From IMG/VR virus record IMGVR_UViG_3300023181_000022, positions 1 through 36,364 of that record: a stretch of 36,364 nt of DNA. One strand, written 5' to 3'. Made by a program: the position numbers and the translations under genes. This document shows, in pieces, positions 720-36,364 of the stretch. Every line of letters begins with the position of its first letter. Within the stretch, counting starts at the first letter, position 1. This DNA is from a virus. The notes under the pieces were generated by a model. The model ran no database searches and was not told where the DNA came from. It worked only from the letters and a program-made list of their open reading frames with translations.

Positions 720-1115
720 CTAATTTGTTTTATATTTTAATTCTTCGCCTGTTAATGCAAAATACATATTCTGCAATTCATGTACGTGCTTTGCTTCAAC
801 ACCAATCTGGTCTGAATTTACAGAAACATTAAATCCATGACGTATTCTTCCCCAAATTGAAAAACCTAAATCAGAATCTATTTGATAAGAATCATTTATT
901 TCCGTATATTCAAATCCGAATCTAAACAGCCATTCCCTTGTTATCTGAACAGGTTCTGCATTCGAAATTTTAAAGCATCCTTCCGTAGACTCCCCTCTTT
1001 TTATCCTGAACGTATCATCACTATGAAGTGAAGATATTTCTACAATCTCGGATTTGTAAGCTATAAGGTTTCCTATCCTGAAATCCTTTGACGATAATCT
1101 TTTTTCTTGTTCCAT
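720..1115 (-). CDS. Conserved phage protein, paralog 1 (RIGN ... LQNxYFxLTGEEL family)
   Basis: 131 residues; function unknown. It starts MEQEKRLSSKDFRIGN and ends with the family hallmark VHELQNMYFALTGEEL. Middle motifs are an ITREWL segment and GFEY. Two more members of this family are in the genome, at 3828-4175 and 33398-33820. The first 50 or so bases are nearly identical to those of the 33.8-kb copy (51 of 52 bases by hand alignment, 1069-1120 against 33774-33825), pointing to recent duplication or conversion. The start lies in a TAATTATG context. A TATATTTG -7 box lies 21 nt upstream and a terminator at 1200-1222 isolates it from the lysis region. Confidence 0.85.
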   Translation of the reverse strand: MEQEKRLSSKDFRIGNLIAYKSEIVEISSLHSDDTFRIKRGESTEGCFKISNAEPVQITREWLFRFGFEYTEINDSYQIDSDLGFSIWGRIRHGFNVSVNSDQIGVEAKHVHELQNMYFALTGEELKYKTN

Positions 1116-3643: not shown

Positions 3644-3831
3644 AGGGTTTTGTTTTTTGACACTTCATAAAATTTTGACCTTATAGATGATAATGTTCTC
3701 AATGGAAATTCAAGACCACTTTCATTATGAAGCATATATCTTGCAAATTCAAACGCTTCTTCCATAGTTTCGCTATCATCAGACTCTATATACATAAATA
3801 GCCATTCTATTTCTTTTTCACTCCATTTCAT
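3631..3831 (-). CDS. Small acidic protein of unknown function
   Basis: 66 residues, rich in Glu and aromatic residues (MKWSEKEIEWLFMYIESDDS). It may fold as helices. It overlaps the upstream gene (3828-4175) by 4 nt (ATGA type), so it is translationally coupled. No family recognised. The intrinsic terminator at 3620-3643 covers its stop codon. Confidence 0.65.
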   Translation of the reverse strand: MKWSEKEIEWLFMYIESDDSETMEEAFEFARYMLHNESGLEFPLRTLSSIRSKFYEVSKNKTLKAS

Positions 3832-4175
3832 AATAATTTATTTAAGTTTAATTCTTCGCCTGTTAATGAAAAGTAAAGGTTTTGGAGTTCGTGAACATAT
3901 TTTACTTCCCTTATTGCTTTATCCGCCCAATCAGCAATAAAACCATCAAATACATCAGGATTTACCCAAACTGTAAACATTGTCCAATTCTCATATATAT
4001 TTCCCTTTTTTTCAAATCCAATATTAAGAAGCCATTCTTCCGTTAATGGGATTCCTAAATACATAACAGAGGGTTGTATAATTTTTGAAACAGCGTAAAT
4101 TGTTTCTGCTGTACAATTAACGTGTTTACCTAAATAGTTTATTGTATTACCTATTCGTAGTTCTTCTGCTTTCAT
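3828..4175 (-). CDS. Conserved phage protein, paralog 2 (RIGN ... LQNLYFSLTGEEL family)
   Basis: 115 residues. Family landmarks: LRIGNTINYLGKHV near the N-terminus, IPLTEEWLLNIGFEKKG in the middle and VHELQNLYFSLTGEEL at the C-terminus. It is more diverged than the other two copies (720-1115 and 33398-33820) and lacks the MExEKRLSSKDF leader. Function unknown; the family is widespread in Bacteroidota phages and prophages. It is 2 nt from the outer-membrane barrel gene upstream. Confidence 0.8.
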   Translation of the reverse strand: MKAEELRIGNTINYLGKHVNCTAETIYAVSKIIQPSVMYLGIPLTEEWLLNIGFEKKGNIYENWTMFTVWVNPDVFDGFIADWADKAIREVKYVHELQNLYFSLTGEELNLNKLL

Positions 4176-5337: not shown

Positions 5338-5457
5338 TTAAAGGTTAAAAATTTTATAAGCAATACAGAAAACAACAGTAATCGAAATAGTTCCTACTAT
5401 CACAAAGCCTACTATTGTCTTTAATATCCTGTCTGTTCTTTCGTCGTCGTGGTTCAT
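5338..5457 (-). CDS. Single-helix membrane micropeptide (39 aa)
   Basis: 39 residues: MNHDDERTDRILK, then a hydrophobic helix of about 20 residues (TIVGFVIVGTISITVVF) and a short end (KIFNL). Its ATG overlaps the stop of the gene at 5454-6146 (ATGA), and its own stop lies 4 nt before the methyltransferase gene. The tight coupling supports it being real. Function unknown. Confidence 0.65.
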   Translation of the reverse strand: MNHDDERTDRILKTIVGFVIVGTISITVVFCIAYKIFNL

Positions 5458-6146
5458 TGTTCTAAATTTTTAGTTGATTCGCTATACCATTCCCAGTTAT
5501 CCACACCACCAGCTTCTAAAGCAGATAATAATTCATCACGTTTTAAAAGATTAGAATATTCTTCACCGCTTATTGATATTTCTTCACCCTCAATCATTAC
5601 TTTTTTTGAATCCTCCAAATTTTTAATGTCTTGGATTAGTTTATCATAATCTTTTATTACAATATCTGTAAGAGATTTTCTATTCTCTACAATTCTGTCA
5701 TATTTAATAATTTCTTGTGAATTATCCTGCAATTGTTTTTCCTGAATTTTTATAAGACTTTTGTTTTCAGCTACAATGTCTATCAGTCCGTTAAGAATAT
5801 TCTTATTAGATGCAATTTGTGACTTTAGTTTTTCATTTTCTCTCCACTCAAAAGGGATGTCTTTTAAGTCCTTTGCTTTAACCCAAAATAAGTTTTCTTC
5901 TGTTATTTCATTCTGTTGAAATATTTCTTCCAAAATATCATTGGCATTATTCACCCTATCATCACAATAGCAAGTGCTTTTGTGACCTACCATACAAGCA
6001 TCACAACCTCTAAATGATTCTGCGATTTGATCCAAATCTTTTCCTTCTATTTCAATCTTAACAAATACTTGGTAAAAATCTATTTGCTCATGTTTTTTTA
6101 AAACCAATACAGGTCTGTTGTTGTAGTACTTAATCGTATTTTCCAT
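5454..6146 (-). CDS. Cys-rich coiled-coil phage protein of unknown function
   Basis: 230 residues from the ATG at 6144-6146 (TAATTATG context); an upstream in-frame extension is rejected because it runs through a stem-loop leader. Residues about 50-70 hold a cysteine/histidine cluster (RGCDACMVGHKSTCYCDD) that may bind zinc. Residues about 105-190 form a long charged coiled coil. The combination is familiar from Bacteroidota phages but has no assigned role. It is followed by the coupled micropeptide gene at 5338-5457. Confidence 0.75.
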   Translation of the reverse strand: MENTIKYYNNRPVLVLKKHEQIDFYQVFVKIEIEGKDLDQIAESFRGCDACMVGHKSTCYCDDRVNNANDILEEIFQQNEITEENLFWVKAKDLKDIPFEWRENEKLKSQIASNKNILNGLIDIVAENKSLIKIQEKQLQDNSQEIIKYDRIVENRKSLTDIVIKDYDKLIQDIKNLEDSKKVMIEGEEISISGEEYSNLLKRDELLSALEAGGVDNWEWYSESTKNLEQ

Positions 6147-6165: not shown

Positions 6166-6215
6166 AGAATGCCAATCAAATCAAGAGCTTGGACTCTATC
6201 ATTAATTGGCATTCT
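6166..6215 (-). promoter_or_regulatory. 11-bp perfect inverted repeat in the leader of the gene at 5454-6146
   Basis: AGAATGCCAAT (6166-6176) and ATTGGCATTCT (6205-6215) are perfect complements separated by 28 nt. The loop holds a smaller stem (AGAG with CTCT). It ends 20 nt before the start codon and lacks a following T tract, so it looks like a leader RNA structure or an operator rather than a terminator. A poor TATATTTT -7-like box lies just upstream. Confidence 0.5.
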
Positions 6216-6284
6216 AAAATATATTTTCCCTTTGTAACTAAAAGTCCAAGTTTAATTACATGACAAACATAATAAATTATTCAA

Positions 6285-33397: not shown

Positions 33398-33820
33398 TTA
33401 CTTTAGGATAAGTTCTTCGCCTGTTAAAGAAAAATATAAGTTCTGCAACTGGTGGAGAAATTCAAAAGCATTAATTGCCACAACAGTTTCTGAATTATCG
33501 CTTCCTACAACAAACAACCATCTTTTCATTACTGGATTGTATTCAGTTGCCAAAAATGACTTTTCATCATCCCCGAATCTTGAAAACCTTTTTACATATC
33601 CACCTTCTGTAAGCTTAAACCCAAACTTCACCAGCCATTCCACTGTAATTTTAACAGGTTCGGCAGTACAAATACGGAAACACCCCTCGAACAAATCCCC
33701 TTTTTTTGTCCTAAAAGTATCATCTTCATGTAGAGAAGATATTGCCTTTATTTCTCCATTATGTTCAATAATATTTCCTATCCTGAAATCCTTTGACGAT
33801 AATCTTTTTTCGTGTTCCAT
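33398..33820 (-). CDS. Conserved phage protein, paralog 3 (RIGN ... LQNLYFSLTGEEL family)
   Basis: 140 residues from the ATG at 33818-33820 (MEHEKRLSSKDFRIGNIIEH). Landmarks: CRICTAEPVKITVEWLVKFG and a final LHQLQNLYFSLTGEELILK. It is closer to the copy at 720-1115 than to that at 3828-4175. Function unknown. It is the first gene after the structured leader at 33841-33930, whose terminator would silence it unless read through. A longer ORF from 33859 is rejected because it runs through the leader hairpin. Confidence 0.85.
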   Translation of the reverse strand: MEHEKRLSSKDFRIGNIIEHNGEIKAISSLHEDDTFRTKKGDLFEGCFRICTAEPVKITVEWLVKFGFKLTEGGYVKRFSRFGDDEKSFLATEYNPVMKRWLFVVGSDNSETVVAINAFEFLHQLQNLYFSLTGEELILK

Positions 33821-33840
33821 AATTAGTTTATTAAAATGAG

Positions 33841-33930
33841 AAAACCCCAACAGATGCACTACTATCTGTCAGGGTTACTCTATTAGTCATTGACTAAAAT
33901 ATTTTCCTGTCGGTAGTGCTTTCGACTAAA
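33841..33930 (-). ncRNA. Candidate leader or small RNA with complementary hairpin loops
   Basis: The region from the promoter to the terminator encodes about 90 nt. The 5' hairpin (GTCG 33926-33923 with CGAC 33912-33909) has GCACTAC in its loop (33919-33913). The terminator hairpin has GTAGTGC in its loop (33862-33856). These 7-mers are perfect complements and could form a kissing-loop or long-range pairing. Between them is a 15-nt palindrome (TTAGTCATTGACTAA, 33883-33897), and TTTAGTC occurs both in it and at the 5' end, so two pairings compete. It could be an attenuator or a small regulatory RNA. Confidence 0.55.
33845..33874 (-). terminator. Intrinsic terminator in the leader of the gene at 33398-33820
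   Basis: In minus-strand RNA, bases 33874-33864 pair with 33855-33845 over 11 positions around an 8-nt loop (33863-33856). Two of the pairs are G-U, which exist only in minus-strand RNA. UUUUCUCAUUUU follows. It ends 25 nt before the start codon, so it would terminate the short RNA made from the promoter at 33931-33960. Confidence 0.7.
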
Positions 33931-33960
33931 CAAATATACAAAAATATTTCAAACAAACAA
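33931..33960 (-). promoter_or_regulatory. Bacteroidota-type promoter driving the structured leader
   Basis: On the minus strand TTG (33958-33960), a 19-nt spacer and TATATTTG (33931-33938), the best consensus match in the window. It begins directly after the stop codon of the gene at 33961-34230. Confidence 0.8.
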
Positions 33961-35978: not shown

Positions 35979-36364
35979 TTAGGCTTTTAAAATTTCATTG
36001 TTTACTAACTTATAGAAAATGTCTGATTTTATAATTTCACCATCCACAATAACAGATTTTAAATGTTTAATATAAAAATCACCATTTAAATCATAATCTC
36101 CCTCCACAACAACAAGCCAGGCACCCAATGATCCTTTAACCTTTGTTCCTTTCCCTACAGCAACTGCGACCCCTCCCTTAACTGTGGAAGCGTAAGAATA
36201 GTCACCGCTTGACGATGCGCCCGAACGGTTACCGCTTGACGATGCGCCCGAATGGTTACCGCTTGACGATGCGCCCGAAGAGTAACCGCTTGACGATGCG
36301 CCCGAATAGTCACCGCTTGACGATGCGCCCGAATAGTTACCGCTTGACGATGCGCCCGAATAGT
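35979..36364 (-). CDS. DUF7666-like nonapeptide-repeat protein, C-terminal part
   Basis: This continues the gene that starts at 478, across the contig junction. Units here read SGNHSGASS, SGNRSGASS and a diverged last unit SGDYSYAST. They are followed by VKGGVAVAVGKGTKVKGSLG, a short beta-rich segment and the end NNEILKA before the TAA at 35979-35981. The repeat-plus-beta C-terminus is typical of the DUF7666-type proteins I know from phages and mobile elements. Bases 36266-36364 duplicate the left end and should not be translated twice. Confidence 0.85.
   Translation of the reverse strand, partial: YSGASSSGNYSGASSSGDYSGASSSGYSSGASSSGNHSGASSSGNRSGASSSGDYSYASTVKGGVAVAVGKGTKVKGSLGAWLVVVEGDYDLNGDFYIKHLKSVIVDGEIIKSDIFYKLVNNEILKA
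36194..36364 (-). repeat. 27-bp in-frame tandem repeat (nonapeptide SGxxSGASS)
   Basis: Units are 27 bp and code nine residues. After circular collapse there are six full units plus a degenerate seventh; the array continues at 1-113. In all six full units the codons for SG and SGASS are identical at every base. The only differences lie in codons 3 and 4 (GAC/AAC/TAC and TAT/TCT/CAT/CGT), and all change the amino acid. Confidence 0.9.
36266..36364. repeat. Right copy of 99-bp terminal direct repeat
   Basis: Identical base for base to 1-99. It holds about 3.7 units of the 27-bp tandem repeat. It should be counted once when the molecule is circularised. Confidence 0.95.

Follow-up and report, generated by a model that had tools for sequence, protein, structure and literature searches.

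The RNAI/RNAII pair of ColE1 forms a seven-base loop-loop helix between two RNAs from opposite strands, and phage morons are extra genes with their own promoter that lie between phage genes. Leader RNA structure before phage homing endonuclease genes has been described for T4-type phages; leader hairpins of I-TevI, segB and Aeh1 mobE are thought to limit expression, and they mask the ribosome binding site in a manner dependent on the promoter used (PMC2988022). For seg43(25) of Aeromonas phage 25, a very stable hairpin is reported that lies immediately upstream of, and does not cover, the start of a free-standing endonuclease gene; this is a single hairpin with no kissing partner described there, and its effect is given as undetermined (PMC2988022). 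The STAXI motif of Weinberg et al. 2010 is a pseudoknotted RNA near DNA-handling genes, with the pseudoknot repeated in tandem (PMC2864571).

The window analysed here, i.e. the whole stretch of 36,364 nucleotides of viral DNA, contains at 33833-33960 on the minus strand an element (copy 1) that belongs to a large family of structured leader RNAs found in Bacteroidota viruses, apparently undescribed until now. As in the T4-type cases, leader RNA structure precedes phage homing endonuclease genes in most members of one subfamily (subfamily B, below); unlike them, the leader leaves the start region outside the fold, owns its promoter and is closed by a kissing helix, and its position upstream of the gene start, without covering it, recalls seg43(25). 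The seven-base helix between two hairpins resembles that of ColE1 but lies within one RNA, and, unlike in morons, the conserved leader places a terminator-like hairpin ahead of the gene. The pseudoknotted fold near DNA-handling genes is shared with STAXI, whose tandem repetition sets it apart from the present leaders, which match no Rfam model. Searching Rfam 15 at the gathering cut-off gave 0 matches in the window and 0 in five loci of the sister subfamily (subfamily B), matches below the cut-off in the window were chance-like, and no description of the leader family was found in the literature searched, itself only part of published work.

Reading of the minus strand at 33833-33938 showed a Flavobacterium-type promoter followed by three hairpins. 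The -7 box of Bacteroidota sigma-A type (TATATTTG) lies at 33931-33938, and a TTG that may be a -33 element stands 19 nt from it at 33958-33960. Hairpin 1 (GTCG-AAAGCACTAC-CGAC, 33926-33909), expected to start at about +1, carries the loop 7-mer GCACTAC (33919-33913). Hairpin 2 (palindrome TTAGTC-AAT-GACTAA, 33897-33883) was predicted by folding within an A-rich linker, and hairpin 3 (GAGTAACCCTGACAGAT...ATCTGTTGGGGTTTTCTC, 33880-33838), terminator-like by terminator scan and fold, carries GTAGTGC in its loop (33862-33856). The two loop 7-mers are exact reverse complements, as an earlier note on this DNA had claimed. An AU-rich stretch (33821-33837) leads from hairpin 3 to the start codon of a gene of 140 aa (33398-33820, minus strand) that matches phrog_10066, of unknown function. 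This ATG, at 33820, lies 17 nt past hairpin 3, and copy 1 is the leader of a gene, a point missed earlier.

The stem of hairpin 3 contains one U-G and one G-U pair, both of which become A-C mismatches in plus-strand RNA; the minus strand is thus the correct one, in agreement with the earlier observation of two G-U pairs possible only in minus-strand RNA. Folding of 33838-33930 gave -27.5 kcal/mol (z -3.15), with 2 of 200 shuffles equally good, and hairpin 3 folded alone gave a z of -4.52, with 0 of 200 shuffles as good. The terminator scan returned one site, hairpin 3, against 1.4 expected, which for a terminator alone is chance level, and a general promoter scan of both strands was likewise at chance level. 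Interruption and partial pairing of the T-run past the stem (TTTTCTCATTTT) make what had been called a terminator a weak one, although its hairpin is terminator-like.

A second leader copy, overlooked earlier together with the membership in a large family, was found by the descriptor scan on the minus strand at 6166-6271. Its -7 box (TATGTTTG) lies at 6264-6271, hairpin 1 at 6234-6259 with the loop CTTGGACT at 6250-6243, and hairpin 3 at 6166-6215 with the loop AGTCCAAG at 6195-6188; the gene behind it (5454-6146, minus strand) matches phrog_6234, annotated as a host RecBCD nuclease inhibitor, at its C-terminal end. Hairpin 1 starts 4 nt past the -7 box in both copies, and neither led gene is a homing endonuclease. 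The corresponding leader of a related phage (L286, from the phage that also carries L149) has GTGCCG in place of CTTGGACT and the partner CGGCAC, with the outer stem kept. Three related genes of LRIGN/phrog_10066 type occur in the window (720-1115, 3828-4175 and 33398-33820). The first and the last share near-identical DNA across the gene start (GATTATCGTCAAAGGATTTCAGGATAGG), with a structured leader at 33398-33820 only; the paralog at 720-1115 has the promoter box and lacks the fold. A tie of the leader to phrog_10066 was rejected, given this paralog and the different gene behind the leader of L149; in L476, moreover, it is a subfamily-B leader that precedes a phrog_10066 gene. At 35979-36362 the window holds a frame with tandem YSGASSSGN/D-type repeats that continues beyond the window end.

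The pattern scan of viral contigs yielded a homolog (L149) that shares about 107 base pairs with copy 1 over the interval between the promoter box and a point shortly past hairpin 3, and BLAST over all fetched loci added L113, L134, L174 and L114. A second copy in L134, whose led frame begins MEIEIWKDVPEYEGL, has CTACTAC/GTAGTAG in place of GCACTAC/GTAGTGC, and its hairpin 1 stem covaries from GTCG/CGAC to GCAA/TTGC. A covariance model built without the window copy and without this CTACTAC copy scored 93 bits for the window (E 3e-15) and 49.5 bits for the L134 copy (E 1e-6). In the six-sequence alignment of this GCACTAC subfamily, 12 of 32 pairs had changes on both sides, against a shuffled mean of 4.2 and 0-2 in slid registers; the kissing helix was paired in 42 of 42 cells, and 6 of the 15 stem pairs of hairpin 3 changed on both sides. 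Hairpin 2 is present in this subfamily with one double-sided change and absent from subfamily B. Neighbouring genes used as bait brought few close relatives, with a remote member (GGTCAG/CTGACC) in L178, and the leader used as a BLAST query matched no phage or plasmid record. An exact 14-mer scan (GCACTACCGACAGG) returned mostly chance matches, the true homologs having come from BLAST. A genome scan with AAGCACTACNGAC...GTAGTGC gave 15 matches, 0 of them with flanking structure, the new matches of the pattern CCGACAGGAAAATATTNNAGT were coding-like, and pattern R1 gave one marginal match, without structure, on 395 Bacteroidota genomes.

Since the kissing-helix changes in the window subfamily occur in one sequence and most of its members were found via the loop sequence, a loop-unbiased test was needed and was made in subfamily B. 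The search pattern around hairpin 3 left the loop free (TGAYAAAG-N7-CCTTTTGA) and gave at least 123 usable places in viral contigs, mostly members. Sixty-one distinct compact leaders among the matches listed formed alignment A11; L441, L443 and L468 were omitted as non-members (promoter-like box, only a 5-nt match, different spacing). In 61 of 61 leaders an upstream 7-mer is complementary to all seven bases of the free loop, about ten different loop pairs being represented, and the kissing helix was paired in 427 of 427 cells, without G-U and with both-side changes in five of the seven pairs; slid controls were 11-70% paired. Double changes were counted in 47 cells, whereas shuffles gave 10.8 and slid registers 0-6, the cells of these related sequences being non-independent events. 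The outer stems, left free by the pattern, also covary. Complementarity was thus kept while the sequence changed, in L134 and in 61 of 61 subfamily-B leaders, and the loop-loop helix is therefore a real RNA structure; about ten mismatch-free pairs leave little room for another interpretation. Uncompensated variation of the two 7-mers had been named beforehand as evidence against the element, and the homologs instead vary with compensation. An antisense role is not supported because the complementarity lies within one molecule and nothing pointed to an opposing transcript. Hairpins 3 of L284 (at 7233), L422, L448 and other subfamily-B loci show a symmetric internal loop, UUGAU/UGAUA, that is nearly constant, partly as fixed by the pattern, and could form tandem sheared G-A pairs. 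The subfamily-B pattern had one match (TGATAAAGTGTATAACCTTTTGA) in 395 Bacteroidota genomes, as chance predicts.

The general architecture was scanned for with a descriptor that combined a promoter box, hairpin 1, a later hairpin whose loop is complementary to that of hairpin 1, and a start codon behind. At a score of at least 38, 17 matches were obtained in 4.75 Mb of Bacteroidota phage DNA (both strands), and controls on the same DNA at the same score, in which the second loop was the reverse, the complement or a copy in place of the reverse complement, gave 3, 2 and 0 matches, respectively. Compared with shuffled sequence, 15 matches were found where 0.67 were expected. At this score Bacteroidota host DNA (0.88 Mb) gave 0 matches and other viral DNA (2.01 Mb) gave 1. 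The joint occurrence of promoter, hairpin, complementary loop and start codon is beyond chance. Members unrelated in sequence included window copy 2 and leaders of other uncultured phages, the hosts of viral contigs being deduced from gene relatives and promoter type. Cultured-phage members were found in Olleya phage Harreka_1, the Flavobacterium elemoE, elemoA and hattifnatt phages, and Bacteroides phage BS-TP2; the elemoE and elemoA leaders, 73% identical, have swapped the kissing pair (GTGGAGG vs TGAGAG) and kept the fold. Three leader-like elements (L222 rc 3948, L254 rc 8188 and L362 rc 800) have kissing pairs of 8-9 nt and no close start codon, and possibly either act as RNAs on their own or precede very short genes. 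In OQ791282.1 (Shigella phage Henu10) a terminase match had the same coordinates and score as in Riemerella phage vB_RanS_PT15, and the host label of that record is doubtful. The proposal of a new phage regulatory RNA was borne out in that the element is absent from Rfam and combines a promoter with a terminator-like hairpin and pairing between its loops.

The position of the leader relative to promoter and gene, which like its structure was established computationally, was similar across members. The Flavobacterium sigma-A box has the consensus TAnnTTTG at -12 to -5 (PMC9723704); in all 61 leaders of subfamily B, 4-6 nt separate the -7 box from hairpin 1, which puts the start of the hairpin at about +1 to +3 on that map, a fixed spacing to which the common descent of these related sequences perhaps contributes. 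The 5' end of the RNA is accordingly expected close to the first base of that hairpin. A TTG in the matching interval occurs in 19 of 94 subfamily-B promoters; the consensus promoter once claimed for the window (TTG-N19-TATATTTG) is present there, but its -33 element is not conserved, and the promoter call therefore rests mainly on the -7 box. In the listed descriptor matches the start codon lies about 5-30 nt past hairpin 3, and when the ATG requirement was dropped most higher-scoring matches still had a start codon at 11-35 nt, a few having none. The start region, 17 nt away in copy 1, thus stays outside hairpin 3, and sequestration of the ribosome binding site by hairpin 3 was not found. 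Judged from the sequences, the leader would be the 5' part of an mRNA and no free-standing RNA.

Members of unrelated sequence have in common a stem at about +1, its loop-loop helix with the hairpin ahead of the start region and, usually, a U-run. Pairing of the 5' end is known to slow 5'-end-dependent decay. The mechanism we infer, and favour tentatively, is a portable 5' leader acting in cis, which would lock the 5' end of the mRNA, usually end in a leaky terminator-like hairpin and set the expression of the cassette gene. Transcription would start at the first base of hairpin 1 or 1-2 nt before it, so the mRNA 5' end would be base-paired at once and may be shielded from 5'-end-dependent decay. 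The loops of hairpins 1 and 3 would then close the whole leader, through 7 bp of Watson-Crick pairing, into a compact unit ending about 5-30 nt before the start codon, insulating the start region from the DNA of the insertion site. Hairpin 3 with its U-run may act as a leaky intrinsic terminator whose partial termination keeps output low, and most likely it is the fold itself that would set expression of the cassette gene at any insertion site. The window copies would act like subfamily B. A self-contained expression module is favoured because 5' pairing would slow decay, the closed fold would insulate and the U-run would trim output; against it, 5' protection offers no reason for kissing beyond a simple hairpin.

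The terminator-like end bears on the main rival, a regulated transcription attenuator in which hairpin 3 is conditional and the kissing, or a factor that recognises it, gates read-through and times the gene. A T-run of at least four was found in 20 of 23 descriptor matches, against 14% of background ORF starts, and 58 of the 61 leaders of subfamily B have one directly past the stem (five or six T in 56, four T in 2). Most members thus have a terminator-like hairpin with a U-run directly before the start codon, and the loop of that terminator is the kissing partner. T4 homing endonucleases are timed by leader RNA (PMC2988022). The U-run is, however, weak or missing in window copy 2, L295 and L291 and interrupted in copy 1, and hairpin 3 as an obligatory terminator was rejected for the family as a whole. 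Nor is an antiterminator alternative conserved: the 15-nt palindrome that had been said to share TTTAGTC with the 5' end does so in copy 1, but the overlap is not conserved in homologs, and no other pair of mutually exclusive conserved structures, as in a classical attenuator or riboswitch, was noticed in an unsystematic comparison. No ligand or factor is known, and the led genes have no common pathway. Attenuation, which the layout had been said to resemble, is less probable than the favoured reading and would have to work without the alternative pairing proposed for it.

No kissing pair was repeated in the 22 loci with at least two predicted leaders, where the extra leaders are predictions and some loci are related; the count within subfamily B alone is too small to exclude chance. 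Each pair might be a private lock of its cassette that avoids cross-pairing, with a loop-loop switch gating hairpin 3 and the cargo gene, which we regard as rather unlikely. If true, it would define a mobile class of regulatory RNA, spreading along with its cargo genes and exchanged among them.

The led genes and their mobility bear on the remaining rivals. Scanning of 54 led proteins (mostly subfamily B) gave 30 HNH_3, 23 NUMOD4 and 6 GIY-YIG matches, which overlap; the remaining genes were helicase, primase-like or unknown. Most subfamily-B led genes are therefore predicted NUMOD4/HNH or GIY-YIG homing endonucleases. A guide RNA of the IscB type (HEARO / IscB omega RNA, RF02033) was rejected, with no Rfam match and led nucleases of HNH_3/NUMOD4 or GIY-YIG type. 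A conserved protein of 78-79 aa (MNTISVQGFKIDINHFDTQISKSGRPFRLSGV...) replaces the nuclease behind leaders of L390, L400, L401, L402, L414, L426, L449, L471 and L488. In the cleanest subfamily-B pairs the flanks are 2-13 nt apart in the empty relative and about 585-922 nt apart when occupied, the insert comprising -7 box, leader and gene together; in the L420/L380 pair a short promoter-adjacent stretch is duplicated at both insert ends. Comparison of these loci indicates that the leader is a mobile cassette with homing endonuclease genes, moving between viruses, as demonstrated for subfamily B alone.

A stand-alone small RNA acting in trans through its loops, with the gene behind as a mere neighbour, would account for the own promoter, the terminator-like end, the variety of genes behind the leader and the few copies without a close start codon. 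It is improbable given that promoter, leader and gene form one inserted unit with a similar short distance to the start codon in most members, and that the loops already pair with one another and vary freely as pairs, a behaviour ill-suited to a fixed target. A leader that modifies the transcribing polymerase in cis, as HK022 put does, for passage of later terminators would fit a two-hairpin core at the very 5' end of transcripts whatever the led gene. The U-run directly behind it and its place mostly before single mobile genes, not at the heads of long early operons, make this very improbable, and kissing, to our knowledge, is no part of put. That the inverted 7-mers are half-sites of a DNA operator, for instance for self-repression by the led endonuclease, with covariation following one protein, is scarcely credible: the inverted repeat adjoins the promoter and I-TevI represses its own promoter in T4 (PMC2988022), but the stems around each 7-mer covary separately, the stem G-U pairs make sense only in the RNA of one strand, and one and the same pair, GTCGTCG, precedes HNH genes as well as GIY-YIG genes.

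Little is known of RNA biology in Bacteroidota phages, to which the finding would add a widespread family of structured 5' leaders that Rfam lacks; its tertiary contact is unusually well backed by covariation, and it is testable because members occur in cultured phages. It opens the question of how mobile endonuclease genes bring their own expression control to any insertion site, and a scaffold with many interchangeable kissing pairs could supply insulator parts for Bacteroidota genetics.
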